Below are positions 13,953 to 33,741 of a DNA stretch of 64,000 bases, piece by piece (within the stretch, counting starts at the first letter, position 1; every line of letters starts with the position of its first letter). The DNA lies in NCBI RefSeq assembly GCF_021228125.1, contig NZ_JAJQQS010000003.1:806001-870000 (forward strand), given 5' to 3'. A program made the translations under genes and the position numbers. Under the pieces are notes generated by a model, which had not been told where the DNA came from, ran no database searches, and saw nothing but the letters and a program-made list of their open reading frames with translations. Source of the stretch: Streptomyces albireticuli (lineage in GTDB: Bacteria; Actinomycetota; Actinomycetes; Streptomycetales; Streptomycetaceae).

Positions 13953-14458
13953 GGCACACCTCCCCGGACGCGCGGGTCCGCCCGGACGCGCGGATCCACC
14001 TCCGGAGGATTCCCCTTACCGCGCGTGGCACGGGAGCGCACGGGCGCACAGGGGGAGCACAGGGCGCCCGAGCGTGCGCCCGCGCATTCGCCTGAGGCGC
14101 CCCGCCCGGCCGAAGATCGAAAAACCTGACGAGGTGTCACTGGTAAGGGTTCACCGGTCACTTCGGTGATTTCGATCAGGAGGGAATTCGGTCAATACGG
14201 TAACTTGACTCGCATGAATTGATCATTCCGGGGTGGAATGCTTTGTTCCCGATCGAAGAGGTGCCATGCTTGACAGAAGCATCAAAGGCCGGTCTCGCTC
14301 GGGCGCGGCCGGCGGGGGAAATTGGCGGGGGTCGCTTCCCAGGCTTCGTCAGCCTGGTCGAAGGGTGGCTGATCTGCACTGACCTGCACTGATCGGCGCC
14401 CTATTTCACAGGGGGATCCCAAGGCCGGAAGACGACGTGAAATGCCGGGGGAATGCCA
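13953..14458. promoter_or_regulatory. Upstream region of the SARP gene
   Basis: About 500 bp without a credible gene. The first half is GC-rich. From about 14110 it becomes AT-richer, as promoters do in this genome. It contains a perfect inverted repeat ATGCTT-gacag-AAGCAT (14266-14271/14277-14282), with TTGACA inside it (14270-14275), and a ggaatt...attcc pair around 14183-14229. I could not place a convincing -10, so the SARP promoter itself is not assigned. The dyad is a candidate site for whatever controls the cluster activator. Confidence 0.45.
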
Positions 14459-15298
14459 GTGAAGTTCAACGTGCTCGGTGCTCTGGAAATGGTGACCGAC
14501 GACGGACGGTCCCTGGAGCTGAACACCTCGAAGACGGGACAGGTGATCGCGCTGCTCCTTGTGCGGTGCCGGGAGACGGTCAGTTCCGACACTCTCCTCG
14601 AAGAGCTGTGGGGGCAGCGATTACCGCGCAGCGCCCGGACCACGCTGCAGACGTACGTCTACCACGCACGGCAGATGTTCGACCGGGAGCTGCCCGGGCA
14701 GGCCGGGCACGAGGTGCTCGTGACCCGGCCGCCCGGGTACGCCATCCTGGCCGACGAGGAGCTCGTCGACAGCAAGCGCTTCGAGCGCCTCGTCAGGGAA
14801 GGCAAGGGGCTCCTGGACGCGGGCCGCCCCGAGGACGCGATGGCGCGGCTGGACGAGGCCCTGGCGATGTGGCACGGCCCCGCCTTCTCCGGAATGGCCT
14901 TGGGCAGAGTGCTCAGCGCGCACCTTACACACCTGTGCGAGGTGCGCATCCGGGCGATCAACCTGCGTATCGAGGTGCTGCGGCGGCTCGGCTTCTACCA
15001 GGAGCTGGTGCCCGAGCTCAGCTCGCTGGTCGCGTTCCACCCGCTCAACGAGCACTTTCACGCCCAGCTGATCGAAGCCCTGTACAAGACCGGGCGGCGG
15101 GCCGACGCCCTTCGGGCGTACCAGCAGCTGCGCACCGTCCTGGACCAGGAACTCGGCGTCGAACCGGCGCCGGAGATCCGGCGGCTCCAGTACGAGGTGC
15201 TGAACCACGGCCGGTACGACGAGGACCGGCCCACGCGGGGTGTCGCTCCGCGCGACCGCTTCGACGTGCCCTGGGGCCTGCGCGCCAAGGCCGGCTAG
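14459..15298 (+). CDS. SARP-family cluster activator (AfsR/DnrI/RedD type) with a TTA codon
   Basis: 279 residues from GTG 14459, preferred because gggggaatgcca gives proper spacing and the protein then begins VKFNVLGALEM like other SARPs. ATG 14453 adds two residues. An OmpR-type winged helix occupies about residues 1-95 (SRTTLQTYVYHARQMF-like segment, GYAIL), and a bacterial transcriptional activation domain about 97-245 (DSKRFERLV...LDQELGVEPAPEIRRLQ). Family members bind TCGAG direct repeats of 11-bp period and activate antibiotic promoters. Codon 55 is TTA (14621-14623), so translation should need the bldA tRNA. It is the only activator in the cluster. Confidence 0.93.
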   Translation: MKFNVLGALEMVTDDGRSLELNTSKTGQVIALLLVRCRETVSSDTLLEELWGQRLPRSARTTLQTYVYHARQMFDRELPGQAGHEVLVTRPPGYAILADEELVDSKRFERLVREGKGLLDAGRPEDAMARLDEALAMWHGPAFSGMALGRVLSAHLTHLCEVRIRAINLRIEVLRRLGFYQELVPELSSLVAFHPLNEHFHAQLIEALYKTGRRADALRAYQQLRTVLDQELGVEPAPEIRRLQYEVLNHGRYDEDRPTRGVAPRDRFDVPWGLRAKAG

Positions 15299-15425: not shown

Positions 15426-16598
15426 TCAGATCGCCAGGCACTGGGCCGCGTAGGAGTCCGCCGCGGGCTGGAACTGGAGCGCGATGTGGCTGGCGGCGGA
15501 GTTGACGTCCCGCCACAGCCGTTGCAGCGGGTTGCTCTCGGCCTGCCCCGAGGTGCCCGCCGCGTGAAAGAGCCGGTTCACCGAAGTGACCAGGACGTCG
15601 ACGGCGTAGGAGCAGTCGCGCAGATTGCGCGTCACCTCGAGGCGGGTGGCCGCCGCGCCCTTGTCGCCGATCAGCGAGGCGCGTTCGAGGAGGAGTGCCG
15701 CGGCGTCGATGTCGGCCGCGCAGCGCGCCAGCGTGGCGTGCGCCGAGGCCCGGTCGACCTGCGGGGCGTCCGGGCGCGCCGCGGCGGACCTGGCCTTCTC
15801 GGTGAGGTACGCCGACCAGGCGGCGAGCGCCCCGCGCGCGGCGCCGAGCACCGGGGTCGCGAAGGAAAGGCCGTTGACCGCTTCGAGCGGCACCGAGTGG
15901 CAGGGTGCGGCCGAGTCCACGGCGCGTCCGGTGAAGAGGTCCTGGCGGTCGAAGCACCGGGCGTCGGGGACGAGGACGTCCTCGACCGTGACGGTGTTGC
16001 TTCCGGTGGCCCGCATGCCGATGTTGAACCAGGTGTCGGCGACGGAGAACTGCGCCCTGGGCACCGCGAACACCTTGGCCGAGGAGCGCTCCGCGCCGGG
16101 GACGGTGGCGCACACCAGCGCCCAGTGGGAGGAGTCCACCGCGCTGATGTAGGACCACCGGCCGCTCACCCGCCAGCCGCCCGGCACCTTGCGGGCCCGG
16201 CCGGCCGGCATCAGGGACCCGACCACGACGGCGTCCGGACCGTCCGCCCACACCTCGCGGAAGCCCTCCGCGGGCAGGAACGCGGCCATCCGCGAGAGGT
16301 TGGCCATCAGCGAGGCGCACCAGGCGGTGGCCGCGCACTCCCGGCCTATCTCGGCCACCGCCGGGGTCAGTTCCCGGAACGTGCCGGCGTTCCCGCCGCA
16401 CTCGAGGGGGACGAAGTGCCGGGAGAATCCGGCGTCGACCAGGGCCCGGGCCACGTCCGGGTCGAGCCTGCGCGCGGCTTCCGCCGAGGTCGCGCGCTCG
16501 GCGGCGAGGGCGGCGACGCCGGCGGCCGCCGGAGCCGCTTCGGACATGGTCGTGGAGGGTGCGGTGGTGGCGACGCGCTGTGGGGATCGGTCCAGCAT
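15426..16598 (-). CDS. Acyl-CoA-dehydrogenase-fold flavin-dependent monooxygenase (ActVA-ORF5-like)
   Basis: 390 residues of the class D flavin monooxygenase/acyl-CoA dehydrogenase fold. Segments seen are ATAWCASLMANLSRMAAFLP (about 90-110), SGRWSYISAVDSSHWALVCA (about 150-170), TWFNIGMRATGSNTVTVEDV (about 205-225) and a C-terminal helical domain with NPLQRLWRDVNSAASHIALQ. The W-R-D-x-x-x-x-x-x-H ending is typical of the HsaA/ActVA-5 branch, which uses reduced flavin from a separate reductase to hydroxylate aromatic polyketides. The likely partner is the flavin reductase at 26894-27499. It has its own promoter with a SARP box at 16672-16689. Confidence 0.88.
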   Translation of the reverse strand: MLDRSPQRVATTAPSTTMSEAAPAAAGVAALAAERATSAEAARRLDPDVARALVDAGFSRHFVPLECGGNAGTFRELTPAVAEIGRECAATAWCASLMANLSRMAAFLPAEGFREVWADGPDAVVVGSLMPAGRARKVPGGWRVSGRWSYISAVDSSHWALVCATVPGAERSSAKVFAVPRAQFSVADTWFNIGMRATGSNTVTVEDVLVPDARCFDRQDLFTGRAVDSAAPCHSVPLEAVNGLSFATPVLGAARGALAAWSAYLTEKARSAAARPDAPQVDRASAHATLARCAADIDAAALLLERASLIGDKGAAATRLEVTRNLRDCSYAVDVLVTSVNRLFHAAGTSGQAESNPLQRLWRDVNSAASHIALQFQPAADSYAAQCLAI

Positions 16599-17477: not shown

Positions 17478-17642
17478 CTGGCCCCGTACGCTAGCACGGC
17501 ACAACTCCCGCTGAGCAAAGGGAAGTTCCAGGAGAGGGAGGCCGGTCGCCGCGGTTCGTGGGCGCGGCGCCGGACCTGCCCGACTCGCATCGCACGCGCC
17601 CCTCGGCCGAGCCCGCGCAGGACGACAAGGCAGGAATCCGTG

Positions 17643-18251
17643 ATGAGCCTGAACATCGCCGTCATCTACTACTCCGCGACCGGGAACGTGCACCGGATAG
17701 CCCAGGCGGTCGCCGAGGGAGCGGACAAGGGAGGCGCGGAGGTGCGCCTGCGCCGGGTCGCCGAACTGGCCCCGGACAGCGCGATCGACGCCAACCCCGC
17801 GTGGCGGGCGCACCTCGACGCCACCACCGGCGTCGAGCTCGCCGCACTCGACGACCTGGCCTGGGCCCACGGCGTCGCCTTCGGCACCCCGACCCGGTTC
17901 GGAAACGTCTCCGCGCAGCTCAAGCAGTTCCTGGACACCACCGGCGGGCTGTGGGCCTCCGGTGAGCTCGCGGACAAGACGGCGACCGGGTTCACCAGCG
18001 CCGCCAATGACCACGGCGGCAACGAGTCCACGCTGCTCGCGCTGTACAACACCATGCACCACTGGGGCGCGATCACCGTCCCGCCCGGCTACACCGACGC
18101 CAGTGTCTATCCCGCGGGCGGCAATCCCTACGGCACCTCCCACGCCTCGCAGGGCGGCGGCCCCTCGCCGGAGGTGCTCGCCGCGGCCCGCTTCCAGGGC
18201 CTGCGCCTGGCCCGGATCACCGCCCGGATCGTCGGCGACGGCCGGAACTGA
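17643..18251 (+). CDS. WrbA-like FMN-dependent NAD(P)H:quinone oxidoreductase
   Basis: 202 residues of flavodoxin fold. The FMN phosphate loop is YYSATGNVHRIAQA (residues 9-22), followed by AFGTPTRFGNVSAQLKQFLD (about 78-97) and FTSAANDHGGNESTLLALYN (about 117-136), all WrbA signatures. It reduces quinones by two electrons and is often a self-protection or tailoring enzyme in quinone pathways. ATG 17643 is preferred over GTG 17640 for spacing from caggaa. It heads the plus-strand operon from the TetR-controlled promoter. Confidence 0.92.
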   Translation: MSLNIAVIYYSATGNVHRIAQAVAEGADKGGAEVRLRRVAELAPDSAIDANPAWRAHLDATTGVELAALDDLAWAHGVAFGTPTRFGNVSAQLKQFLDTTGGLWASGELADKTATGFTSAANDHGGNESTLLALYNTMHHWGAITVPPGYTDASVYPAGGNPYGTSHASQGGGPSPEVLAAARFQGLRLARITARIVGDGRN

Positions 18252-18438: not shown

Positions 18439-19488
18439 ATGGCAGACCGCCCCGACGAACAGCGATTACACCGGGCCACGACGCCGGCGGGCGAACCTCC
18501 GCACCAGGGCGAGGTGCTGTGGGACACCGACTTCAGCGAGGGCTTCGCCACCAGCGGGCCCGGTGCGCGCTGGTACCACTCCGCGACCGGTCCCCACACC
18601 GGGGACGACGGGGTGGTCACCACCGGTGCGCACGGCCTGCGGGTCGACTCCGGCGGCGTCGGCGAGAACGGCACCCCCGCGTTCGTCCGCACCCTCGCCC
18701 AGGAGCGGGAGAACGGCCAGGGGCTGCCCGGCCTGCTCGACCACGTCAAATGGCTCGCCTACATCCAGCACGAATCCTCCGCCGGACTCCCCGGCTTCGA
18801 CGCGCCGCCCGAAGGGGAGCTGATATTCGAGGCCGATGTGTCCGGCCGTACGTACGGCACGGAAGGCCATCCCTTCGGTGAGGCCGTCGCCGATCCCGAG
18901 GACGACCTGCGCCTCGCCTCGATCGCGGTCAACGCCTTCGACCCGGAGACGCTCCTGGTCGTCGACTTCTTCCTGACCAACTCCCGGATCTACGCCTTCT
19001 ACGAGCGTTTGCCGTTCGCCCGCCGGCAGCTGGGCGACTACGCCTCGTTCTCCTACGCGATCCCCGTCGCCCGGCGCTCGCCCGGTCAGCGGCACCGCCT
19101 CGCGCTGCACTACGACCGCTCCGCCGGCCGGGTGCGCTGGGTGGCCGACGGCGACGAGGTCTTCCGCACGGACCGGCTCGGCCGTCGCCTCGACTCCTCG
19201 CGGCACCTCGTCCTCGACCACGGGGGCGAGGAGACACCCATCGCGCCGCGCCAGCTCAACGGCGGCATGGGCATGTTCAGCCTCCTCGACGGCGCGCGGC
19301 CGGGACAGGCAGGAGCCGCTCTGGTGCGGCTGTCCGACGCGGAGGACTTCTACTTCGCCCCGGCCCTGGGACAGCCCCGGCCGCAGACCTTCCTGGACGA
19401 CAAGAGCGCGCGGACCGGCCGGCTCTTCGGCCAGGGCGCGAGCCTCTCCGTGGCCCGCTACACCGTTCGGAAGGGGCACGGCAGGTGA
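18439..19488 (+). CDS. DUF6081-like protein, copy 1 (function unknown)
   Basis: 349 residues, cytosolic (no signal peptide). It is paralogous to the protein at 22087-23097. Shared blocks are DHVKWL, SGRTYGT..HPFGEAVADP, DLRLAS, FFLTN, ERLPFxRxQLGDYAxFxYAxPVA, HGGExTPxxPRQ and RLFGQGA. The alternating hydrophobic pattern suggests a beta-sandwich (lectin/LamG-like) fold. I recall this family as DUF6081; that name needs an HMM check. Codon 10 is TTA (18466-18468). Its stop overlaps the lipocalin-like gene start (GTGA), so the two are translationally coupled. Role in the polyketide pathway unknown; a cyclase or binding protein is possible. Confidence 0.75.
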   Translation: MADRPDEQRLHRATTPAGEPPHQGEVLWDTDFSEGFATSGPGARWYHSATGPHTGDDGVVTTGAHGLRVDSGGVGENGTPAFVRTLAQERENGQGLPGLLDHVKWLAYIQHESSAGLPGFDAPPEGELIFEADVSGRTYGTEGHPFGEAVADPEDDLRLASIAVNAFDPETLLVVDFFLTNSRIYAFYERLPFARRQLGDYASFSYAIPVARRSPGQRHRLALHYDRSAGRVRWVADGDEVFRTDRLGRRLDSSRHLVLDHGGEETPIAPRQLNGGMGMFSLLDGARPGQAGAALVRLSDAEDFYFAPALGQPRPQTFLDDKSARTGRLFGQGASLSVARYTVRKGHGR

Positions 19489-19946
19489 ACCACCGCGACG
19501 CCGGGCGGCCCGTCCCGGCAGCGGCCGAGCTGGCCGGGACCTGGCGCCTCGTCTCGTACGTCGACGTGGACGAGGCGGGCGGCACCGGTGAGGGGCCGCT
19601 CGGCCCCGCACCCGAAGGGCTCCTCATCTACGACGAGCAGGGGTACATGGCGGTCAGCATGATGCGCACCGGCCCCTCCGCGGCCGCCGGGCCGGGGCAG
19701 CGGGCCGGGGGAGCGGCCCCGGCCCGGCAACACGAGACGTTCATGGGGTACGCGGGGCGGTGGCGCCTCGCCGACGAGCGCACCGTGGTGCACCACGTCG
19801 AGGTCAGCGCCCACGGCCACCAAGTGGGCCGGGAACTCGTCCGCGAGCTGGAGCAGGACGGCGATCGGATCGTCCTGCACGGCACGGCGATGATCGGCGG
19901 GCGGCCGCAGCGGCGGCGGCTCTGCTGGGAACGGGTGCGCGGGTGA
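19485..19946 (+). CDS. Lipocalin-like domain protein
   Basis: 153 residues, GTG start overlapping the preceding stop. The sequence ELAGTWRLVSYVDVDEAGGT, then PEGLLIYDEQGYMAVSMMRT, YAGRWRLADERTVVHHVEVS and VLHGTAMIGGRPQRRRLCWE matches the small beta-barrel Lipocalin_5 pattern (G-x-W near the N-terminus, repeated two-strand units). Such proteins bind hydrophobic ligands, and related barrels in natural-product clusters act as cyclases or isomerases. Between residues 60 and 85 lies a Gly/Ala/Pro-rich loop. A catalytic role here is inference. Confidence 0.7.
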   Translation: MNHRDAGRPVPAAAELAGTWRLVSYVDVDEAGGTGEGPLGPAPEGLLIYDEQGYMAVSMMRTGPSAAAGPGQRAGGAAPARQHETFMGYAGRWRLADERTVVHHVEVSAHGHQVGRELVRELEQDGDRIVLHGTAMIGGRPQRRRLCWERVRG

Positions 19947-20088
19947 GCCCGTCCCGCGCACCTCGCACCGAAGGCCGGACGGGGTGACCCCACCCCGCCG
20001 TGCCCGGGGCCGGACGACGGCCCCGCACCCGCACGACAGCGGACCACGGGCAATGTCCATCGTTCTTCAACGCAAAGGAAACTCCGCC

Positions 20089-21018
20089 ATGAAGGCTCTG
20101 ATCGCTTCCTCCTACGGCCCGGTCGACCAGCTGACGGTCACCGACGTGACCAAGCCGGCACCCGAGGCCGGGCAGGTTCTGATCAAGGTGCGGGCCGCGA
20201 GCCTGAACGCCCTGGACATCCGCCTCACCACGGGCGAGTTCCGCGAGCAGATGCCCGTGGAGCACCCCTTCCACCTCGGGCTCGACGCCGCGGGAACGGT
20301 GGAGGCCGTGGGCGAGGGCGTGTCCCGCTTCAAGGCGGGCGACGAGGTCGTGGCCTTCACCTACCCGTTCTTCGGCACCGTCGCCGAATACGCGCTGGCC
20401 ACCGAGGGCCCGAACCTGGTGCACCGCCCGCAGTCCCTGTCGCCGGAGACCGCCGCCGCCCTCCCGCAGGCGGCCATGACCGCCGCCGCCGCGCACGACG
20501 CGGCCCAGCTCAAATCCGGCCAGAGCGCGCTGGTGATCGGCGCGTCCGGCGGCGTCGGGTCCTACCTGGTGCAGCTCGCCCACCGGTCCGGAGCCCAGGT
20601 GCTCGCCACCGGCAAACCCGAGGACGACGAGTACCTGCGCCGCCTGGGAGCCGTCGAGACGATCGACTACACCGGCAAGGACGTCGTCGAGGAGGCGCGC
20701 CGCCTCCGCCCCGACGGCGTGGACGTGGTGATCGACCTGGTCAACGCCGGGCCCGGCCTCGCCGCCACCGCGGCCGCGGCCAAGCCCGACGGGCTCCTCG
20801 TCTCCACGCTGGGCGGCGCGCCGGGGTTCGAGCGCGGGGTCACGGCGGCCTATGTGGGCGTGGAGCAGGGCATCGGGCAGCTCGAGGACCTCGTCCGGCG
20901 CGCCGCCGAGCGGCAGCTGGACACGCACGTCGACGCCCTCCCGTTCTCCCGGGCCGTCGAGGCGGCGCAGCGGTTCGCCGGCTCCCACTCCCGCGGCAAG
21001 CTCGTCATCACCTTCTGA
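20089..21018 (+). CDS. Medium-chain NADP-dependent reductase (zinc-independent QOR/ActVI-ORF2 superfamily)
   Basis: 309 residues; ATG 20089 follows aaaggaaactccgcc. GroES-like domain 1-120 (MKALIASSYGPVDQLTVTDV, then NALDIRLTTGEFREQMPVEH); Rossmann domain with SALVIGASGGVGSYLVQLAH (about 145-164). It ends SHSRGKLVITF, typical of QORs. It lacks the zinc-ligand cysteines of alcohol dehydrogenases. In actinorhodin biosynthesis a relative (ActVI-2) reduces an enoyl bond, so an enoyl or quinone reduction of the polyketide is likely. Fourth gene of the plus-strand operon. Confidence 0.87.
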   Translation: MKALIASSYGPVDQLTVTDVTKPAPEAGQVLIKVRAASLNALDIRLTTGEFREQMPVEHPFHLGLDAAGTVEAVGEGVSRFKAGDEVVAFTYPFFGTVAEYALATEGPNLVHRPQSLSPETAAALPQAAMTAAAAHDAAQLKSGQSALVIGASGGVGSYLVQLAHRSGAQVLATGKPEDDEYLRRLGAVETIDYTGKDVVEEARRLRPDGVDVVIDLVNAGPGLAATAAAAKPDGLLVSTLGGAPGFERGVTAAYVGVEQGIGQLEDLVRRAAERQLDTHVDALPFSRAVEAAQRFAGSHSRGKLVITF

Positions 21019-21082
21019 GCCCACGCCGCCCGCGGCCCCGGCGGGCCGCGGGCGGCACCCCGCGCGAAGCGACCCCACCGAG

Positions 21083-22090
21083 GTGACCGCCGTGGCCTAC
21101 GACTACGATCCCGAGCTCGCTCCCTGGGCGGCGCGCCTCGCCCCGGTCGACTACACGGACCCGGTGGCCGCCCGCGCCGCGGTCCGGGCCGTCACCGAGC
21201 GTCGGCCGCCCTACCGGCCCCTCGGCGCCGTCGAGGTGTCCGAGGCCGCCGCCCCCGGACCGGACGGCGCCCCACCGGTGCCGCTCCGCGTCTACCGGCC
21301 CGCCGCCCGGGACGCGCGGCCCGGCCCCGGACTGCTGTACCTGCACTGGGGCGGCTTCGTCTGCGGCGGCCCGGACGCCCTGCACCCCACGTGTCTGCGC
21401 CTGGCGGACCGCACCGGCGCCGTCGTGATCGCGCCGGCCTACCGCCTCGCACCCGAGCACCCCTTCCCCGCCGGTCTCGAGGACGCCTACGCCGCCCTGC
21501 TCTGGACGGCGGGCGACGCGGACCGGCTCGGTGTGGACCGGGACCGGCTCGGGATCGGCGGCGAGAGCGCCGGAGGCGGACTGGCCGCCGCGGTGGCCCT
21601 GCTGGCCCGCGACCGCGGTGGACCCCCTCTGCGCATGCAGTGCCTGATGTGGCCGGAGCTCGACGACCGCCTCGAAACGGTCTCGGCCCGTGCCTTCACC
21701 GACACACCGAAATGGAACCGGGCGTGCGCGCAGGCGAGTTGGGGTCACTACCTGGGGCCGCGCCACCGGCCCGGCGCCGACGCGGTGCCTGCGTACGCCG
21801 CGCCCGCCCGAGCGGCGGACCTGTCCGGACTGCCGCCCGCGTATGTGGGCGCCTGCGAGTACGACCCGGGGCGCGACGAGGCCCTCATCTACGCCCACCG
21901 GCTCATCCAGGCGGGGGTGCGCACCGAGATCGGCTACTGGCCGGGCACGTTCCACGCCTCGGTCTCGGTCGCCGACGCGGCCGTGAGCCGCAGGATGCTC
22001 ATGGACCAGACCGACGCGCTCGTCCGCGGACTGGGCGGCACGGCACACCGCACACCGCACGCCGACACCGAGGAAGGGAAACGCACGTGA
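21083..22090 (+). CDS. Alpha/beta hydrolase, hormone-sensitive-lipase (family IV) type
   Basis: About 335 residues; GTG 21083 and in-frame GTG 21092 are both possible starts. The oxyanion motif is LYLHWGGFVCGG (HGG variant with W inserted in place of one G), the nucleophile elbow GIGGESAGGGLAA (Ser near residue 159) and the acid/base pair YDPGRDEALIYA and FHASVS. It hydrolyses esters or lactones. Since a Baeyer-Villiger monooxygenase is in the cluster, opening of the resulting ester or lactone is an attractive substrate hypothesis. The stop overlaps the next start (GTGA). Confidence 0.85.
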   Translation: MTAVAYDYDPELAPWAARLAPVDYTDPVAARAAVRAVTERRPPYRPLGAVEVSEAAAPGPDGAPPVPLRVYRPAARDARPGPGLLYLHWGGFVCGGPDALHPTCLRLADRTGAVVIAPAYRLAPEHPFPAGLEDAYAALLWTAGDADRLGVDRDRLGIGGESAGGGLAAAVALLARDRGGPPLRMQCLMWPELDDRLETVSARAFTDTPKWNRACAQASWGHYLGPRHRPGADAVPAYAAPARAADLSGLPPAYVGACEYDPGRDEALIYAHRLIQAGVRTEIGYWPGTFHASVSVADAAVSRRMLMDQTDALVRGLGGTAHRTPHADTEEGKRT

Positions 22091-23097
22091 GTCATGGCGC
22101 GGCAGAGAAGGTGATCTGGGACGCCGACTTCGCCGGCGGGTTCACCGCGACGGGCCCGGACGCCCGCTGGTGGCACTACGCGCAGCAGTCCTACGTCGGC
22201 GACGACGGCCGTGTGACGACCTCGGACCAAGGGTTGCGCGTGGTCTCCGGCGGCGTCAACCCGGTCACGGGAGAGCCCGCCTTCGTACGCGGCCTGGGGC
22301 AGGACCACGTCAACGGCGCCGGGCTGCCCGGCGAGATCGACCACGTCAAATGGCTGTCCTACGCCAACGAGCGCGCCGCCGGGGGGATGCCGGGCTTCGA
22401 CGCGGTCCGCGGACAGGTGCTCCACTTCGACACGGTGTTCTCGGGGCGCACCTACGGCACGGCCGCACACCCCTTCGGCGAGGCGGTCGCCGACCCGGAC
22501 AGCGACCTGCGACTGGCCTCGGCGGCAGCCCCGATCGTGGACTTCGAAAGCTTCATCGGTGTCGAGTTCTTCCTCACCAACGCCAAGGTGTACGCCTGCT
22601 ACGAACGGCTGCCCTTCGGGCGCGGACAGCTCGGCGACTACGCGGCGTTCCTCTACGCCGTTCCCGTCGCCGACCGCGCACCCGGGGACGTGCACCACTG
22701 CCGGGTCTCCTACGACCGCGCCGCCGGAACGGTGCGCTACCTCCTGGAGGGCGAGGAGGTCTTCCGGGTGGACCGGCTCGGATACCGTCTGGCGGGCCGC
22801 GAGCACCTGATGCTCGAGCACGGGGGCGAGGACACGCCGGCCGAGCCGCGTCAGTTCGCCGCCGGTATCGGCCTGTTCACCGTACTGGACGGAGCGCTGA
22901 CGGGCCACGCGAACGCGTCCGGCCTGGTCCGCCTCACTCCCCGGCCGGAGCAGTACCACAGCACGCTCCAGGGACCGCCCGTACCGCAGACGTTCGTGGA
23001 CCCCGACAGCGCGGAGACCAGCCGGCTCTTCGGACAGGGGGCCGAGGTGACGGTGGCCTCCTATACGGTCTCCGTCTCCGAGGCGGCCGGCGGCTGA
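22087..23097 (+). CDS. DUF6081-like protein, copy 2 (function unknown)
   Basis: 336 residues, GTG start inside the hydrolase stop. It is clearly paralogous to the protein at 18439-19488 along its whole length (VIWDADFAGGFTATGPDARW against VLWDTDFSEGFATSGPGARW), with the same conserved blocks. No signal peptide, no cofactor motif. Two diverged copies retained in one operon suggest either a heterodimer or two successive reactions. It is the last gene of the operon, ending 67 bp from the convergent BBE gene. Confidence 0.75.
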   Translation: MSHGAAEKVIWDADFAGGFTATGPDARWWHYAQQSYVGDDGRVTTSDQGLRVVSGGVNPVTGEPAFVRGLGQDHVNGAGLPGEIDHVKWLSYANERAAGGMPGFDAVRGQVLHFDTVFSGRTYGTAAHPFGEAVADPDSDLRLASAAAPIVDFESFIGVEFFLTNAKVYACYERLPFGRGQLGDYAAFLYAVPVADRAPGDVHHCRVSYDRAAGTVRYLLEGEEVFRVDRLGYRLAGREHLMLEHGGEDTPAEPRQFAAGIGLFTVLDGALTGHANASGLVRLTPRPEQYHSTLQGPPVPQTFVDPDSAETSRLFGQGAEVTVASYTVSVSEAAGG

Positions 23098-23163: not shown

Positions 23164-24774
23164 TCAGGGCCTGTGCGGAAGTTCGACGGACTGCGAGTGG
23201 CGGAAGAAGTCCGTGGGGTCGAACCGCGCCTTGGCCCGCTGCAGCCTGCGGTAGTTGTCCTTGTAGTACAGGGCGTGCCAGGGCACCCCCGACTTGTTGA
23301 ACCGCGGGTCCTTGATGTCGGTGTCCGGCGAGTTGATGTAGCAGCCGTCGGACTGCTCGTTGGGCACCGGGTACCCGCCGGTCGAGGCGAAGGCGGTGTG
23401 GTAGATCTCGCGGAGCCAGCCCATGTGCTGCTCGTCCTCGCGGGGGTCCTGCCAGTAGTTCTCGAACAGGGCGAGGAACGCCGAGTCGCGGTGCACGGAG
23501 GCGGTGGCGTGCGGATCGACGGCGTTGATCCGGCCGCCCGCCACCCCGGTGAGCTGGAGCGTGGCGTTGGGGTTGACGTAGTCGTCCCGGGTCATCTGGT
23601 CGTAGAACGTGCCTATCTGGGCGTCGGTGAAGCCCTTGCGCATATACGCGGTCTTCACGCCGCTGCGCATGGCGGGGCTGGTCATCAGCGTGGGGTTGCT
23701 GGTGCCGATCAGCTCGGTCGCGTCCAGCCAGGACAGCCTGGCCGCCGGCGGGACGGCGGCCTTCGTGCCCTGGGTGATCGCCGAGAGATAGCCGGCCAGC
23801 AGCTCCTCGGCGTTCGGTATCCCGGCGTCGATCTGGGTCAGGATGTTGATGGACCGCGACGCCTTGTGCTGGAGGAACACCACTCCGGTCAGCGAGGTGT
23901 ACGGCGATTCCGGGGCCATGTTCTGCTCGTGCCAGGTGCCGAAGTTGCGCACCAGGTGGGTGAAGCCGGTGCGGTCCAGGTCGGACCAGGGGATCGGGAC
24001 GACGCTCAGGAGCACGCTCTTGGGCGGGCGCGGGAGCTGCTCGGCCGGGGCGGCTCCGCGGCTGCCCGGAGAGCGGAACCAGTAGCGCGTGACGATGCCG
24101 AAGTTGCCGCCACCGCCGCCGGTGACCGCCCACCACAGGTCGTGGTTCGGGTCGTCGGGGTTGCGGGACGCGGTGATCCGGCGAGCCCGGCGGTCGCGGC
24201 CGACGACCACCATCTCCACCGCCTCCAGGTGGTCCACCACATAGCCGAACTTACGGGAGAGCAGCCCGTACCCTCCGCCGCTGGCGTGGCCGCCGATGCC
24301 GACGCCGGGGCACACCCCGCCCGGCAGCGTCACCCCCCAGCCCTTGAACAGCCACTCGTAGATCCGGCCGAGCTGGGCGCCGCCCTCGACGGCGAAGGCC
24401 CGCCGCCGGTCGCAGTAGTAGACGTCGTACATCAGCGACAGGTCGATGATGACCTCGGCCTCGGGGTGGTAGACGAACGGGGCGTAGCTGTGGCCGCCGC
24501 CGCGCACGGAGACCCGCTTCCCGGCCCGGGCGGCCCGGTCCACGGCGTGCAGGACCTGGTCGGAATCGCCGACCACCTGGACGTATTCGGGCGCGGCGAC
24601 CCAGCGCTTGTCATTGCCGGTGACGAGGTCGGGATAGCGGGGGTCGTCCGGTGCGACCCGTACCGGACGGAAGGGCGCGGCGATGCTCTGTACGGGCTCG
24701 ACGTCGAGCGCGACGGCCTCGGGCAGGGAAACCCCTCTGCGCTCCGCTGGTTGATCGCTCATCGTGATGTCCAT
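23164..24774 (-). CDS. Berberine-bridge-enzyme-type oxidase with bicovalent FAD
   Basis: 536 residues. FAD-binding PCMH domain about 40-230, BBE C-terminal segment at 480-530 (DNYRRLQRAKARFDPTDFF). Both covalent anchors are visible: His95 in RGGGHSY and Cys155 in GGVCPGVGIGGHASGGGYG, as in GilR and AknOx. The family oxidises alcohols, hemiacetals or phenols with O2, often as a last tailoring step. No signal peptide is evident. ATG 24774 follows agaagga. Last gene of the minus-strand operon, 18 bp after the BVMO. Confidence 0.92.
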   Translation of the reverse strand: MDITMSDQPAERRGVSLPEAVALDVEPVQSIAAPFRPVRVAPDDPRYPDLVTGNDKRWVAAPEYVQVVGDSDQVLHAVDRAARAGKRVSVRGGGHSYAPFVYHPEAEVIIDLSLMYDVYYCDRRRAFAVEGGAQLGRIYEWLFKGWGVTLPGGVCPGVGIGGHASGGGYGLLSRKFGYVVDHLEAVEMVVVGRDRRARRITASRNPDDPNHDLWWAVTGGGGGNFGIVTRYWFRSPGSRGAAPAEQLPRPPKSVLLSVVPIPWSDLDRTGFTHLVRNFGTWHEQNMAPESPYTSLTGVVFLQHKASRSINILTQIDAGIPNAEELLAGYLSAITQGTKAAVPPAARLSWLDATELIGTSNPTLMTSPAMRSGVKTAYMRKGFTDAQIGTFYDQMTRDDYVNPNATLQLTGVAGGRINAVDPHATASVHRDSAFLALFENYWQDPREDEQHMGWLREIYHTAFASTGGYPVPNEQSDGCYINSPDTDIKDPRFNKSGVPWHALYYKDNYRRLQRAKARFDPTDFFRHSQSVELPHRP

Positions 24775-24792: not shown

Positions 24793-26796
24793 TCATCGCT
24801 TGCCTGATGACGCCGCCGGGTCCGCGGCACGGCCGGGACGGTCCGGGGTCTCGTAGTCGGATGGGTCGACACGGCGGGTGCGGCGCCAGTACTCCTGCGC
24901 CGTGAAAGGCCAGTTCTGCGCCGAGCGCCCTTTCTCGTTGGTGAACCAGTTGCTCACCTTCGACCACCCCCAGGCCCGCTCCGAGTTGGCCCGGTCGACC
25001 CAGGCGTTGTACGCGTCGTGAACATCCCTCTTCACGTCCAGGGACCGCCGTCCGCTTTCGAGCAGCAGCCGAACGGCATCGAGAAGGTAGGTCACTCCGC
25101 ACTCGGAGAAGTAGAAAATACTGCCTCCCTGCCCCGAGAGGTTGGTGTTCGGGCCATAAAGGCAGAAGAGATTGGGAAAACCGGGAACCGTCAGGCCGAG
25201 GTACGCGCGGGCGTCCCCGTCCCAGGTGTCATGCAGATCCGCGCCGCCGATACCGGTGACGCGCATAGGCGCCAGAAAATGGGAAGCGGCAAATCCAGTT
25301 CCGTAAATGAGGATATCGATCTCGTGCAGAACGCCGTCCGCGGTGCGCACACCGTCCTCGGTGATTTCCGAGATTTTTTCGGTGATCAACGAGACATTGT
25401 CCCGCCGTAACGTCCGTAACCACATTCCGTTGTCCCGCAGCACCCGCTTGGCTCCCACCGGATACCGCGGAAGCACCAGCGGAAGCAGTTCGGGCGCGTC
25501 GGTGAGCTGCGCCTCCAGGTGGCGCGTGAGAGTGGCGCGCAACTCGTCGTTGGCGGCGGAGACGGCGCGCTCGGTGGGCGGGTGGTCCGGGTCCACGATC
25601 CAGCCCTCGAGCACACCCCGCAGGCCCGGGGCGAAGAGCCAGAAGCGGTGCCAGGCCGCGTAGTAGGGGAGGTGCTCGTACAGCCAGGCGGTGCTCGGCG
25701 GCACCGCGTCGTGGTAGTGCGGGGTGGGGCGCAGCCACGGCGGTGTGCGCTGGAACACGGTCAGCTCGCCCGCGCTCTCGGCCACCTCCGGAATGAACTG
25801 GTACGCGCTGGCGCCCGTCCCCACGACGGCCACCCGGCGGCCGGCGAGCGGTACGCCGTGGTCCCAGGCGGCGGAGTGGAACGCCGGACCGGCGAACCGC
25901 TCCCGGCCGGGGATGTCCGGCAGTTTGGGCCGGTTCAGCTGTCCTACGGCGCTCACCAGCACTTCGCTCCGCACGCTCCGCGTCCCGTCCGGGCCGCACA
26001 ACTCCAGCCGCCAGCGTGCGTGCTCCTCCTCCCAGCACGCCTCGCGCACCTCGGTGTCGAACCGGATGTGCTCGTACAGTCCGTACTCCTCGGCGAACGC
26101 CCGGAAGTACTCGAGGAGCTGGTCCTGCGTGCAGAAGTGATCCGGCCAGTCGGAGCGGTTGGCGAACGGGTAGCTGTACAGATGGCTGGGGACGTCGACC
26201 CGGCAGCCCGGGTACCGGTTCTCCAGCCAGGTGCCGCCGACGTCCTCGTTCTTCTCGTAGATGGTGAACGGCACGCCCGCCTGGGCCAGCCGGTGTCCGG
26301 CGAGCAGCCCGCTCATCCCGGCGCCGATGATCGACACGCGCACGGGGGCGGGATCCCGGGGCCCCTCGGGCGCCTCGCCGGCCGGTGCGGCGAGGTCCTT
26401 CGCCCGCCAGCGCGGAGCCCTCGGGTCCTGATCGGCGAGGACGATCTCCTCGGCGAGCAGGGGCAGCATGTCCTCGGTGTCGCCGCCCATGGCCCAGCCG
26501 CTGATCCGGCGCAGCGTCTCCCGGTCGGGCGGCGGCGGGGGCACGCTGCCGGCCCGCCGGTACCGTACGAGCGCGTCGAACGCGGTCTCCCGGGCCGCGG
26601 CCCGCTGCTCGGCGGAGAGGCCGCCCTGCGGGGCGAAGAGCCAGCCGGCGGCCCGCAGGTCCTCGCGCAGCACGGACAGGTCGCCCGTGAGGTGCGCCAC
26701 GGTCATCAGCAGCGCGGGCACCTCGGCGCTCTCCAAGTGGGCGCGCAGAGCGTCGTCATCGACGGTGATCGGCTTCAGCGGCCCGAGGAACGACAT
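24793..26796 (-). CDS. Type I Baeyer-Villiger monooxygenase with N-terminal extension (HAPMO-like)
   Basis: 667 residues. The first 150 form an extension as in 4-hydroxyacetophenone monooxygenase. The FAD Rossmann motif GAGMSG is at 158-163, the BVMO fingerprint FAGPAFHSAAWD at 301-312 (F-x-G-x-x-x-H-x-x-x-W-D) and the NADPH motif GTGAS at 326-330. It inserts oxygen next to a ketone. The substrate is presumably a polyketide intermediate. Two TTA codons lie at 25408-25410 and 25417-25419 (MWLRTLRR). The stretch around 25090-25440 is noticeably AT-richer than its neighbours. ATG 26796 was chosen; the longer upstream frame lacks coding character. Confidence 0.93.
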   Translation of the reverse strand: MSFLGPLKPITVDDDALRAHLESAEVPALLMTVAHLTGDLSVLREDLRAAGWLFAPQGGLSAEQRAAARETAFDALVRYRRAGSVPPPPPDRETLRRISGWAMGGDTEDMLPLLAEEIVLADQDPRAPRWRAKDLAAPAGEAPEGPRDPAPVRVSIIGAGMSGLLAGHRLAQAGVPFTIYEKNEDVGGTWLENRYPGCRVDVPSHLYSYPFANRSDWPDHFCTQDQLLEYFRAFAEEYGLYEHIRFDTEVREACWEEEHARWRLELCGPDGTRSVRSEVLVSAVGQLNRPKLPDIPGRERFAGPAFHSAAWDHGVPLAGRRVAVVGTGASAYQFIPEVAESAGELTVFQRTPPWLRPTPHYHDAVPPSTAWLYEHLPYYAAWHRFWLFAPGLRGVLEGWIVDPDHPPTERAVSAANDELRATLTRHLEAQLTDAPELLPLVLPRYPVGAKRVLRDNGMWLRTLRRDNVSLITEKISEITEDGVRTADGVLHEIDILIYGTGFAASHFLAPMRVTGIGGADLHDTWDGDARAYLGLTVPGFPNLFCLYGPNTNLSGQGGSIFYFSECGVTYLLDAVRLLLESGRRSLDVKRDVHDAYNAWVDRANSERAWGWSKVSNWFTNEKGRSAQNWPFTAQEYWRRTRRVDPSDYETPDRPGRAADPAASSGKR

Positions 26797-26893
26797 GGGG
26801 TGACGCCTTTCGTGAGGGAGGTGGTGCCGGGCGGTGCGCCGCCCGGCGGAGGCTAGGCACGGCTCCTGGACCGGAGCCGGGCCGGGACGGTGC

Positions 26894-27499
26894 TCAGGGG
26901 CCCGCTCCCCGGGGCATGTCGCTCCGGGCGCAGTCGGCACCGCACAGGGAGCGGAATCCCCGGTCGGCGTAGACGGCGGGGCGGCCGCCGCCTTCCGGCA
27001 GGATCACGTGCTCCGCCTCACCGAGGAAGATCGCGTGGTCGCCCGCGTCCACCCTGCGCCGCGTCACGCACTCCACGACCGCGAGCGCCCCGGCCACGAC
27101 GGTGCCCCCGCGCTCGGTGGGCACGAAGCCGCCGTCGGAGAACTTGTCCGGGCTCTTGCCCGCGAACCGCCGGGCGAGCTCGGAGTGTTCGTGCCCCTCC
27201 CGGAGCAGGCTGACGGCGAACCGCGGACTCCGCGCGAAGACCGGATAGCAACGCGCCGACGTGGCCAGACAGACCAGGAGCAGCGGCGGGTCCACCGAGA
27301 GCGAGCAGAGCGAACCGGCGGTGAAGCCGTGCGGCCTGCCGTGCCGGTCATGAGCGGTGACGATGGCGACACCGGTGGGCAAGCGGGCCATCGCGCCGCG
27401 GAACAGCGCGGGGTCCGGGCCGGCGCCCCCGCCGTCCGGACCCGAGGCCGCGAGGGCTCCCGGTGCCGACCGGGCGTCCACCCCGGGCCGTGCCGTCAC
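26894..27499 (-). CDS. FMN reductase-like flavoprotein (ActVB/HpaC type)
   Basis: 201 residues. GTG 27499 overlaps the upstream gene stop (GTGA). Flavin-reductase split barrel: FRGAMARLPTGVAIVTAHDR, then HGFTAGSLCSLSVDPPLLLV (residues 34-75), with GDHAIFLGEAEHV near 165. It supplies reduced FMN/FAD to a two-component monooxygenase, most likely the one at 15426-16598. Unusually it has a C-terminal tail with three residues of Cys context (FRSLCGADCARSDMP). The first 25 residues are a Gly/Ala-rich leader. Confidence 0.88.
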   Translation of the reverse strand: MTARPGVDARSAPGALAASGPDGGGAGPDPALFRGAMARLPTGVAIVTAHDRHGRPHGFTAGSLCSLSVDPPLLLVCLATSARCYPVFARSPRFAVSLLREGHEHSELARRFAGKSPDKFSDGGFVPTERGGTVVAGALAVVECVTRRRVDAGDHAIFLGEAEHVILPEGGGRPAVYADRGFRSLCGADCARSDMPRGAGP

Positions 27500-28455
27500 G
27501 GCGTCGCCTCGCGGTGCGTGAAGCCGGACATCGAGACCGTGTACTGCCGGGTGGCGCGGCTGTAGTCCATGCAGTACTCGGTCGGGTACCAGCCGGAGAC
27601 GGCCCACGCCTCGGGCTTCTTGACCGGCATGCAGCCGCCCGCGCGCCCGTTCGCGAGCCCCTCGATCCACTCCTTGGAGATCATGGGCTCGTAGAAGCTG
27701 ATCCGGCCGTCGTACGCGCCGTACATGAACGTCCGCGTGAACGGCTTGCCGTGCATCTCCGGCGCGTCCATGTCCATCAGGTGGTTGCCCATCTGCGGCA
27801 CCACGGCACCCATGTCCATGTACCGGGCCGGCATGTGCCGCTCCGGCACCGGCTTGCGCGCGGTCTTGAGGTCGTCGCAGTTCATCAGGCCGGCGCACGG
27901 GCCGGTGCGGATCCGGCGCACGGCCGCCTCGTCCTGGATGTAGAAGTGGAAGTCGAAGTGCGGGATGCCGTAGCTCTCCGGCGGATGGCCCCGCGGGTCC
28001 CAGGTCAGCTGCGCCCAGGTGAAGGGGCCCCCGACGTTCTCGCGGAACCCCTTGGGAAGGTCCAGTGCCGTCTCGACCTCGTCCACGCACTCCGTGGCCC
28101 GGTCCGTTCTGCCGTCGCCGTTCACGTCGTAGCAGAGCTTGCCGTCGCCCTCCTTGGGCAGGTTCCGCAGGGCGGCGGCGGAGAAGGTGTACCCGAGGGT
28201 GAGCGGGCGGGAGCCGCGGCGCTGCGAGTAGACGCGGACGGTGCCGTCGCCCAAGGGCTGGGGTGTGCCGTACTCGGTCCTGACACGGCCGTGGGCCGCC
28301 GGGCTCGCGTCGGACCGCGAGTCGTCCGCGCGGCCGGTGTCCGCCGCCACCCAGGCGCCGAGCAGGGCGGCGGCCGCGAGGCCGGCCATGACGGCACGGC
28401 GTGCGCGCCGGCCGCGGGTGGCCGGGTCGGACTGTCGAAGGGGTGCCGTCTGCAC
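27496..28455 (-). CDS. Exported DUF5602/TTHB210-like protein inside the PKS operon
   Basis: 319 residues from GTG 28455 (aaagga upstream). The N-terminus GRRARRAVMAGLAAAALLGA is a signal peptide or membrane anchor with an RR pair. The mature part has PHFDFHFYIQDEAA (about residue 155), the His/Asp cluster I associate with DUF5602/TTHB210-like proteins, and later DMGAVVPQMGNHLMD. It also has DVNGDGRTDRATE, an EF-hand/dockerin-like DxNxDGxxD calcium loop, and several Cys. It is coupled by GTGA to the flavin reductase. An exported protein in the middle of a polyketide operon is unusual; metal-dependent late-stage chemistry outside the membrane is conceivable but unproven. Confidence 0.72.
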   Translation of the reverse strand: MQTAPLRQSDPATRGRRARRAVMAGLAAAALLGAWVAADTGRADDSRSDASPAAHGRVRTEYGTPQPLGDGTVRVYSQRRGSRPLTLGYTFSAAALRNLPKEGDGKLCYDVNGDGRTDRATECVDEVETALDLPKGFRENVGGPFTWAQLTWDPRGHPPESYGIPHFDFHFYIQDEAAVRRIRTGPCAGLMNCDDLKTARKPVPERHMPARYMDMGAVVPQMGNHLMDMDAPEMHGKPFTRTFMYGAYDGRISFYEPMISKEWIEGLANGRAGGCMPVKKPEAWAVSGWYPTEYCMDYSRATRQYTVSMSGFTHREATP

Positions 28456-29638: not shown

Positions 29639-29902
29639 TCACACGGTCTTCGCGGCGGAGCCGTTGACCAGGTCGAGTACGTCGCGAGGGCTGGTGAGCA
29701 GCGGGACCACCTCGTCCGGCACCTGCACGCCGAATTCGTTCTCGATGCGCACGGCGGCCTCCAGCAGGGCGAGGGAGTCGTACCCGAGCTCCTGGAAGGG
29801 CCGGTCGCGCACGTCCTCGCCGGCGGGCCAGTCCTCGCTCGCGCCCCCGCAGTCGGCCAGGATGCGGTGCAGGTCGTCAAGGGTCATGGTGGTGTTCGGC
29901 AT
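29639..29902 (-). CDS. Type II PKS acyl carrier protein
   Basis: 87 residues from ATG 29902 (aagga upstream). Phosphopantetheine site LGYDSLALLE with Ser43; acidic four-helix ACP with DEVVPLLTSPRDVLDLVNG at the end, typical of aromatic PKS ACPs. Lies between CLF and ARO/CYC, the standard order. The longer frame from 29938 adds a non-conserved leader and was rejected. Confidence 0.95.
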   Translation of the reverse strand: MPNTTMTLDDLHRILADCGGASEDWPAGEDVRDRPFQELGYDSLALLEAAVRIENEFGVQVPDEVVPLLTSPRDVLDLVNGSAAKTV

Positions 29903-29952
29903 GGTCGAATCCTTGCTGTCGTCAGGAAGGCGGCGCATGTGCGGACGGAGGG

Positions 29953-31284
29953 TCAGAGGGTTGCCTCACGGACCACCACGGCCGAGTTGAAGCCCCATCG
30001 GCCGCGGGCGAGGACCAGGGCGCAGGAGACGCGGGCCTCCCGCGGGCCTCCGGTCACCAGGTCGATTCCGTAATCGGCCGGGACGTCGGAGCTGGCCCCG
30101 GAAGCGGGGATCACGCCGTCCCGGACGGTCAGGAGCGCGGTGGCGACGTCCAGCGGCCCGCCTCCCGCGTACAGCCTCCCGGTGAGCGCCTTGGGCGCGG
30201 TCACCGGCACCCGGCGCACCCCGAACAACTCCCGGATCGCCGTGGCCTCGGCACGGTCCAGGTCGCGGTCACCGGCCGCGTCCGCGAACACCACGTCCAC
30301 GTCCGCGGGCGTCAACCCGGCCTGGGCCAGTGCCTGTTCGGCCGCCCTGCGCAGCCCGGGCGGCCGCCCGGGACGTGCCGGGAGATCCTCCCGGACGCCC
30401 TCCGGGGCGGGGTCGAAGGTCGAGGCGTACCCGGCGATCTCCCCGTACACCCGGCGCACCCCGCGCGCCCGGGCCGCCACGGGGTCCTCGACCACCAGGA
30501 TCGCCCCGCCCTCGCCCGGCACATAGCCGCGGGCCGCCGCGTCGAACGGCAGGTAGGCGCGCTCCGGGTCGGTGGCGTGGCTGATCCGCCCGCTGGCGAG
30601 ATGGGAGACCCACCCCCAGGGGTCGAAGGCGGAGTCCACGCCTCCGGTGACCACCAGGGGAGTGCCGCGCCCGATGGTGCGCCGGGCGTGTCCGAGGGCG
30701 TCGAGGCCGCCGGCCTGCTCGGCCACCAGGGCGCTGCTGGGTCCGCGCATGCCGTTGCGGATCGAGATCTGGCCGGTGTTGACCGCGTAGAACCAGGCGA
30801 AGGACTCGTACACGCTCACCGCCTGGGAGCCGACGCTCCACAGCTTCTTGAACTCCCGGTGGGTGAACTCGAAGCCCCCGCACCCGGTGGAGGTCACCAC
30901 GCCCATGTCGTAGTCCGTGGCCTTCGACGGATCCACGCCCGCGTCGGCGATCGCCCAGTCCGCCGCGGCCAGCGCGAGCCGGGTGGAGACGTCGGTCTGC
31001 GGAAGGAGCCGGCTCGGCAGATGGGCGGACGCGTCGAAGCCCTCGATCTGACCCGCCAGCCGGGCCGGATAGCGGGACGTGTCGAAGCGGGTGATCGGTA
31101 CGACGCCCGAGCGGCCCGCGAGGACCGCCTCCCAGTAGCGCTCCAGGCCGAGGCCGTTGGGAGCGGCGACGCCGATGCCGGTCACATACACCGGGCGGGT
31201 GCCCGGGTGCGGGCCCGGGCCGGGGCCGGGGCGCCGTGTGACGGCCTGCGCCCGGCCCGCGTCCGCCACGCCGACGGCACTCAT
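29953..31284 (-). CDS. Ketosynthase beta / chain length factor
   Basis: 443 residues, thiolase fold. The active-site Cys is replaced by Gln190 in [18 protein letters not shown], the defining CLF change, which decarboxylates malonyl-ACP for priming. The N-terminus has a 28-residue Gly/Pro-rich extension ([16 protein letters not shown]) before [15 protein letters not shown]. The start overlaps the KS-alpha stop (ATGA), so the two subunits are coupled. Chain length cannot be read with confidence. Overall likeness to act-type systems would suit an octaketide. Confidence 0.96.
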
Positions 31285-33470: not shown

Positions 33471-33550
33471 GGTCGGTCCTCTCGGGTTCTGCCGGGATAG
33501 CCCGGGCGTTTCGCTCTGGCTGCGAACTGCGCTCCACGCTTGCCGGAGGT

Positions 33551-33579
33551 GCTCGAACCCGGATCCAATCGGACTGGAA
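33551..33579 (-). promoter_or_regulatory. Possible degenerate SARP box for the KR-led operon
   Basis: On the minus strand TTCCAGT, TTGGATC and TTCGAGC start 11 bp apart; only the last matches the SARP heptamer well (the others match 5 of 7). It ends 81 bp upstream of the KR start. Weak alone, but the geometry fits, and this operon should be a SARP target. Confidence 0.4.
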
Positions 33580-33640
33580 GTCCGGTCGCGCCGGAGCGGG
33601 CCGGCACCCGTGACCGGGCGGCCAGGGGCCGGGAGCCGCC

Positions 33641-33669
33641 TCGAGCGGACTTCGAGGGGACTTGGACGA
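33641..33669 (+). promoter_or_regulatory. SARP box upstream of the NTF2-fold gene
   Basis: TCGAGCG-gact-TCGAGGG-gact-TGGACGA: three heptamers starting exactly 11 bp apart, the first two near-perfect. The gene starts 73 bp downstream (33742). It lies in the divergent region between this gene and the KR operon, so bound SARP might serve both. Confidence 0.7.
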
Positions 33670-33741
33670 GCAGGCCGGACGGTGGCGGGGCCGACGACAG
33701 TGAAGGGTCGCCCGGCACCGTCCACCGAAGGGGCTCCAGCC

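Follow-up and report, generated by a model that had tools for sequence, protein, structure and literature searches.

Paired DUF6081 proteins in a type II polyketide cluster of Streptomyces albireticuli as candidate cofactor-independent oxidases

The subject of this report is a pair of DUF6081 proteins, DUF_A and DUF_B, encoded in a 64,000-nucleotide stretch of Streptomyces albireticuli (NCBI RefSeq assembly GCF_021228125.1, contig NZ_JAJQQS010000003.1, positions 806,001 to 870,000), hereafter the window, whose positions are counted from its first letter. Their closest described relatives are ActVA-3 of the actinorhodin pathway of Streptomyces coelicolor and NcnN of the naphthocyclinone pathway of S. 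arenae. The only literature match to DUF6081 by name in the search made was PMC10697411. There, the family of ActVA-3 and NcnN is termed one of cofactor-independent oxidases and is reported to lack structural characterisation, and the nearest database entry to NcnN is named DUF6081. Inactivation of ncnN abolished naphthocyclinone and led to fogacin, inactivation of actVA-3 left about 8% of actinorhodin production, and inactivation of the reductase gene ncnM changed nothing (PMC10697411, which cites Hashimoto et al. 2023 and Oja et al. 2012). ActVA-3 was assigned two O2-dependent oxidations, one of the monomer and one of the dimer (PMC10697411). Aln6 of the alnumycin pathway, a relative of NcnN, is said to catalyze C-C bond cleavage (PMC10697411, citing Oja et al.). 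In the part of PMC12645565 consulted, ActVA-ORF3 is grouped with late-stage enzymes and does not appear among the tailoring genes deemed indispensable.

Like the window pair, ActVA-3 belongs to the DUF6081 family, as judged by syntenic loci, and has no cofactor domain. Eight Streptomyces loci carry a DUF6081 gene at the ActVA-3 place, then ActVA-4-like and ActVA-5-like genes, with a SARP regulator, a ketoreductase (KR) and a ketosynthase (KS) beyond, an order that we take to be that of the act cluster; these loci are called actinorhodin-type because of this synteny. The actinorhodin and window clusters share a polyketide synthase (PKS) core, an ActVA-5-like monooxygenase and a flavin reductase. 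They differ in that each actinorhodin-type locus has one DUF6081 copy whereas the window has two, and in that the NmrA-type reductase ActVA-4 follows DUF6081 in the former, while no such gene was found in the window. The actinorhodin-type members are 36-40% identical to the nearer window copy. NcnN, with 180 aa, is about half as long as the window proteins, and the profile match of an ncn-like member from the window's own genome is confined to positions 6-121 of 272. ActVA-ORF6-type antibiotic biosynthesis monooxygenases (ABM) also perform O2 chemistry on aromatic polyketides without flavin or metal; their folds, like those of SnoaL2 and AclR, are smaller than DUF6081 and unrelated to it. SnoaL2 and AclR are named as cofactor-independent polyketide oxygenases in the portion of PMC11315284 used here.

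The pair brackets three genes in a five-gene block:

18439-19488, forward strand: DUF_A, DUF6081 (PF19559 by Pfam), 349 aa, no signal peptide by hydropathy
19485-19946, forward strand: Lipocalin_5 protein (PF13924 by profile), 153 aa, overlapping DUF_A by 4 nt, modelled as a barrel
20089-21018, forward strand: medium-chain dehydrogenase/reductase (MDR; ADH_N and ADH_zinc_N_2), best NCBIfam model quinone_pig3, under its cut-off
21083-22090, forward strand: Abhydrolase_3 or hormone-sensitive-lipase (HSL) type esterase (Pfam, NCBIfam)
22087-23097, forward strand: DUF_B, DUF6081, 336 aa, overlapping the esterase gene by 4 nt, Tyr218 in place of the Trp of other members

Both paralogues matched PF19559 over its full length (E 2.2e-97 for DUF_A and 9.9e-93 for DUF_B), and their scores of 326 and 310.7 bits against a curated cut-off of 25.9 bits place them in the family. 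An earlier note on this DNA, written from the letters alone, had given the same coordinates and lengths for two DUF6081-like proteins and had put lipocalin-like, reductase and esterase genes between them in a polyketide setting; the profile searches and the surrounding type II PKS cluster bear it out on each of these points. Its statement that the two proteins had diverged widely fails because they are 57% identical across 321 residues (E 1e-125). No cofactor domain was seen in either protein because only DUF6081 matched in Pfam and nothing matched in NCBIfam to E 0.1, in agreement with the lack of a cofactor motif reported before. The Lipocalin_5 protein scored 86.8 bits against a cut-off of 25, and its model is a predicted beta-barrel (pLDDT 84.2) with the lipocalin 4gzv as best PDB match (E 3.9e-5), which supports the lipocalin-like barrel proposed earlier; for this third candidate catalyst of the earlier note, no more than the barrel is predicted. 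The GTGA coupling ascribed to the neighboring genes holds for two of the four junctions (DUF_A/lipocalin and esterase/DUF_B, with 4-nt overlaps), but at the other two the genes are 142 and 64 nt apart. The start contexts of both overlaps recurred in all three relatives checked (ATGA once). We infer that the block is transcribed as a single operon. Where DUF_B and the BBE gene converge, a G+C-rich hairpin separates their ends, folding only modestly better than shuffled sequences (z -1.59). As a whole, the observation made in the earlier note was partly confirmed.

Multiple DUF6081 copies recur in type II PKS clusters. Among 392 Streptomyces genomes, including the window's own, at least 36 had PF19559 over its cut-off; the counts in this survey are lower bounds because at most six candidates were scored per genome. 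Counting hits of at least 100 bits, and defining linkage as a type II KS-alpha within 40 kb, there were 34 loci, of which 23 were linked. Two or three copies were present in 10 of the 23 linked loci vs. none of the 11 others (Fisher p 0.014, with loci that are not independent), and all ten multi-copy loci were near a type II KS. Contig ends may hide neighbors since seven of the 11 unlinked loci had no KS-alpha match on the same contig. Retention of more than one copy, pointed out in the earlier note, is a recurrent trait of such clusters, and in the Streptomyces sample the members were not mostly single proteins outside biosynthetic clusters. In a sample of the phylum, five of 396 genomes, the window's own among them, exceeded the PF19559 cut-off, and tblastn with DUF_B gave no match in plasmid and phage records.

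A comparison of 35 named loci found window-type pairs in S. eurocidicus, S. griseocarneus and Streptomyces sp. B-S-A12. Two DUF6081 copies surround a lipocalin and a reductase in Actinomadura syzygii and a lipocalin and an esterase in Pseudonocardia sp. CNS-139, and Dactylosporangium roseum also has two copies. In 16 of the 35 loci, the gene immediately following a DUF6081 gene is a relative of the window's Lipocalin_5 gene; a literature search for lipocalins in Streptomyces type II polyketide gene clusters returned nothing. DUF_A and DUF_B were sisters in an early tree (95/86). In a larger tree, which left out 14 loci (repeats of named genomes or very divergent ones) plus L101 and L084, DUF_A grouped with the first Actinomadura copy (96 SH-aLRT), together with the third copy of L082. 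DUF_A and the first Actinomadura copy were again together in a tree of 29 chosen rows (92/95), on which the approximately unbiased (AU) test was run. DUF_B grouped with the second copies of Actinomadura and Pseudonocardia (89 in the larger tree, 82/71 in the 29-row tree). Support for both groupings is moderate. The first Pseudonocardia copy (L078:7546-8584) runs across three frames, through either sequencing error or decay.

Both copies in the window are kept. The 11 columns that are invariant in a 25-member alignment (W28, D40, P64, D152, R174, P193, G232, G247, G316, Q317, and G318 in DUF_B numbering) are all present in DUF_A and DUF_B. Relative to three relatives, dN/dS was 0.34-0.52 for DUF_A and 0.20-0.32 for DUF_B, and both are under purifying selection. 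Residue 218 is Tyr in DUF_B and its three orthologues, whereas the remaining 45 of the 49 aligned members have Trp there; it is the sole departure of DUF_B where all 41 other rows agree. Among near-conserved positions, an Asp (39 of 41) gives way to Ala in DUF_B (B13) and to Thr in DUF_A (A30), and an Arg (39 of 41) to Ser at A254. Two distinct roles fit because both copies are conserved and two copies are also found in the Actinomadura, Pseudonocardia and Dactylosporangium loci.

AlphaFold2 monomer prediction for DUF_B, made with 48 relatives including DUF_A, gave a model (pLDDT 95.6, pTM 0.93) with the beta-sandwich look that had been described earlier, and Foldseek and VIA-align place the predicted fold near glucanases and carrageenases as a jelly roll like that of glycoside hydrolase family 16 (GH16). 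The model resembles the endo-glucanases 3dgt of Streptomyces sioyaensis and 6jh5 (LamCAT) at about 10% identity; VIA-align with 3dgt covered 228 residues at Z 15.9 and rmsd 4.2, with 10% identity. In sequence searches of the PDB, neither DUF_A nor DUF_B matched anything to E 1 by phmmer, and a 25-member DUF6081 profile found nothing significant; its best match, a GH16 laminarinase at a non-significant E 0.12, aligned over the first strand and a strand ending in W-x-x-D-G. GH16 enzymes bear an acid motif, whereas the strict form E-x-D-x(x)-E was present in none of 99 DUF6081 sequences and a loose pattern in two, elsewhere, near the N-terminus (the set is redundant). The GH16 catalytic strand likely corresponds, by strand order and not superposed coordinates, to residues 167-174 of DUF_B, along which Ala170, Tyr172, and Arg174 take alternating positions. 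Of these, Tyr172 and Arg174 each recur in 48 of 49 aligned members, as well as in the eight actinorhodin-type and six short members examined. Trp28, Asp152, Tyr172, Arg174, and Pro193 are kept, with few exceptions, in long, actinorhodin-type and short members.

A Foldseek search of BFVD with the DUF_B model matched uncharacterised proteins of giant viruses of amoebae (Tupanvirus, Pandoravirus, Lausannevirus and Orpheovirus) with TM scores of 0.76-0.84, 16-24% identity and E values of 1e-25 to 2e-22. By Foldseek, these proteins are far closer to the model than any solved structure listed. A search of viral contigs by sequence pattern found no DUF6081 relative.

We consider it somewhat probable that DUF_A and DUF_B are two cytosolic, cofactor-independent, O2-using oxidases of the ActVA-3/NcnN/Aln6 family that serve two steps or substrates. 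The arrangement is real, conserved and recurrent, and its members are most likely two oxidases with separate tasks from a family that is known but little understood. Catalysis without a cofactor, which the earlier note had proposed, agrees with how the family is described in print (PMC10697411). The substrate, an intermediate of an octaketide pathway like that of actinorhodin, would be a hydroxylated naphthol or a hydroquinone bound in the cleft of the jelly roll, where a conserved acid (Asp152 or Asp/Glu160) together with Arg174 and Tyr172 may hold it as an anion. The anion would pass electrons to O2 and lose two hydrogens, giving a quinone and H2O2. The two copies may act at different oxidation steps or on different substrates, and could share the two oxidations that are assigned to ActVA-3 alone in actinorhodin. 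A neighboring NAD(P)H reductase, the WrbA-type or the MDR enzyme, could take the reductase part of ActVA-4. A wider scenario is offered tentatively, and we think it possible but doubtful: a GH16-like glycosidase scaffold became a cofactor-free O2 oxidase with Ala170-Tyr172-Arg174 in place of E-D-E, a co-inherited pair in clusters such as this one divides the two oxidations assigned to ActVA-3 between two dedicated enzymes, and sister clusters divide exported from cytosolic members such that the last oxidation to the active quinone takes place outside the cell. How proteins free of flavin and metal make O2 react with organic substrates is an open question. The confident predicted fold, the near-invariant cleft candidates, a natural pair with a Trp-to-Tyr change and the exported-like/cytosolic split make it testable now, and single- and multi-copy clusters across genera offer a ready comparison for the contribution of a second copy. 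As far as our searches went, recurrent multi-copy DUF6081 clusters, the GH16-type fold and the existence of exported and cytosolic members are new.

Several points weigh against this assignment. ActVA-3 is not absolutely needed, given the approximately 8% of actinorhodin in its mutant (PMC10697411), nor is ActVA-ORF3 listed with the indispensable tailoring genes in the part of PMC12645565 seen, and deletion of the reductase partner gene ncnM was without effect (PMC10697411). The actinorhodin-type members lack a C-terminal insertion of about 45 residues that the window pair carries. The chemistry of dimerisation is not simply transferable because the window has no ActVA-4 homologue. The exported-like relatives (31 of 73) and the members with no type II PKS nearby indicate that the family does more than benzoisochromanequinone (BIQ) chemistry. 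Among the best 50 Foldseek matches listed, TM to the query did not exceed 0.43 for solved GH16 structures. Lastly, a local duplication giving rise to DUF_A and DUF_B is not rejected (AU p 0.105), which leaves the pair's age uncertain, and our claim is one of multi-copy recurrence.

The earlier note offered a heterodimer or two successive cyclisation steps, and its interpretation as a whole is partly supported. In an obligate heterodimer, DUF_A would be catalytic and DUF_B structural or regulatory. The two are indeed kept together and in the same order in all four genomes with this cluster type (the window and L072-L074), and DUF_B and its three orthologues carry Tyr in place of the Trp of the other 45 of 49 members. 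However, DUF_B retains all 11 invariant columns and nearly all other conserved positions, DUF_A departs at near-conserved places too (Ser at A254, where Arg occurs in 39 of 41 others), and the closely related clusters L075, L076, L079, and L099 have one DUF6081 copy in the approximately 21 kb in view. Because the copies differ in predicted export in some clusters, pairing is disfavored in those mixed clusters, and we regard an obligate heterodimer as unlikely. That a DUF6081 protein closes the second ring in place of an ActIV-type enzyme seems quite unlikely. None of the 19 Lactamase_B matches of the genome falls in the window, so another protein may close that ring, and a cleft-bearing jelly roll could template the closure. 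Even so, the same genome has a metallo-beta-lactamase (MBL) gene at a distance of about 550 kb, in a naphthocyclinone-like locus, and the SnoaL-like, lipocalin-like and aromatase genes of the cluster are equally good candidates. Cyclisation is unsupported because oxidation is the role assigned to the studied relatives (PMC10697411).

The statement that the relative Aln6 cleaves a C-C bond (PMC10697411) suggests that the window proteins could be cleaving oxygenases and not dehydrogenating oxidases, and the Baeyer-Villiger-type monooxygenase of the cluster could mean that the product is ring-opened or rearranged. We judge this improbable, as the role assigned to ActVA-3 in the actinorhodin cluster is oxidation, and no sequence feature was found that separates an oxidase from a cleavage role. 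The loss of the GH16 catalytic motif would also fit non-catalytic proteins that bind ligands or carbohydrates, such as chaperones or carriers for the product. Folds of the concanavalin A type often do no more than bind ligands. Some production also persists in the actVA-3 mutant, but knockout of either ncnN or actVA-3 abolishes or sharply lowers production (PMC10697411), and near-invariant polar residues lie on the likely cleft strand; a purely binding role is very improbable.

The cluster around the pair spans 14.4-36.1 kb and is of the type II PKS kind. Its other features are:

14453-15298, forward strand: SARP regulator (profile)
15426-16598, reverse strand: acyl-CoA-dehydrogenase-type flavin monooxygenase, ActVA-5-like, 49-51% identical to the gene at the ActVA-5 place of actinorhodin-type loci
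17640-18251, forward strand: WrbA-type NAD(P)H:quinone oxidoreductase (TIGR01755 over cut-off), adjoining DUF_A upstream
23164-24774, reverse strand: BBE-type FAD oxidase related to TamL, AknOx and GilR, convergent with DUF_B
24793-26940, reverse strand: FMO/Baeyer-Villiger-type monooxygenase
26900-27523, reverse strand: flavin reductase of the ActVB family, ends approximate
27496-28380, reverse strand: conserved putative secreted protein, sub-threshold TTHB210-like match, also in L072-L074 and L086
28604-29587, reverse strand: didomain aromatase/cyclase (ARO)
29639-32546, reverse strand: minimal PKS (acyl carrier protein, ACP, 29639-29938; KS-beta 29953-31284; KS-alpha 31281-32546)
32685-33743, reverse strand: short-chain dehydrogenase/reductase (SDR) KR, start uncertain, 69-72% identical to the KR of actinorhodin-type loci
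33742-34188, forward strand: NTF2-like gene, 53-57% identical to the one occupying the ActVI-ORFA place in actinorhodin-type loci

TetR, aldo/keto reductase (AKR), SnoaL-like and glyoxalase-like genes complete the cluster. The best PDB match of KS-beta was the actinorhodin chain length factor (CLF), 1tqy_B (E 9.2e-180), and a BIQ-type core is present with actinorhodin-like KS, CLF and ACP, ActIII-like KR, ActVII-type ARO and the NTF2 gene. An ActIV-type MBL second-ring cyclase was not found in the window, as the Lactamase_B matches showed. A search of literature titles by producer names found no described product. The rubrolone cluster, in the part of its description used, shares ActVA-5-like and AknOx-like genes with the window; it was rejected as a match, and the window cluster is not filed as rubrolone-type, because nothing seen here corresponds to the luciferase-like, P450 and sugar genes of the rubrolone cluster.

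No ActVA-4 homologue was matched in the window by tblastn, and a 54% identical one lies at about 288 kb of contig 31 (C31) in a separate locus, the remaining genome not having been searched for ActVA-4. Besides the eight actinorhodin-type loci, tblastn detected ActVA-4-like genes in L042, L064, L069, and L098; none turned up in the multi-copy loci examined, with flanks of mostly about 10 kb. In eight of the 35 named loci, the gene just upstream of DUF6081 is of the WrbA type (53-96% identical); four of these loci (L092, L093, L096, and L103) have no KS genes in view, and an FMN_red-family gene adjoins the Minicystis member. By association, these neighbors support quinone chemistry and a reductase-oxidase pairing. 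Members without such a neighbor include L089, by MoaA-type and aquaporin-type genes, and L083, near ABC transporter genes.

The naphthocyclinone-like locus of the same genome lies outside the window on contig 31, at about 272.9-292 kb (L107 and L069). It contains genes for an MBL cyclase, SARP, SDR, LLM-like protein (by eye), O-methyltransferase (OMT), acyltransferase, NmrA, half-length DUF6081, DoxX, and ActVA-5-like protein. Its aligned pieces are 90-95% identical to a locus of S. eurocidicus (G303), where PKS genes are present. The KS-alpha/KS-beta/ACP/ARO block and the KR are absent within the contig 31 locus, whose sequence has no N. Supply in trans is conceivable because the window cluster has PKS genes and an MBL cyclase and NmrA were not found in it.

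Members of the family differ in predicted export. Export was judged by a simple hydropathy criterion instead of a trained predictor, applied to stretches of at least 150 residues; 16 loci (the same genomes under other identifiers, near-duplicates, and half-length or very divergent members) were left out, which removed genome G162 (L084) entirely. A signal-like N-terminus was present in 31 of 73 members and absent in 42, with a bimodal distribution and no member in the gap tested. The window pair is without one. Exported-like and cytosolic-like copies are mixed in L078, L082, L094, L105, and L106. Beyond Actinomycetota, DUF6081 proteins with signal-like N-termini occur in Ruegeria (L083), a Myxococcales metagenome-assembled genome (L087) and Minicystis (L091), with no KS gene match in the stretch in view. 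A distinct kind of type II PKS cluster in S. fulvorobeus and others (L081, L082, L085, L088, and L095) carries two or three DUF6081 genes, most of which encode a signal-like N-terminus, together with neighboring Lipocalin_5, AKR, TetR and ActVA-5-like genes.

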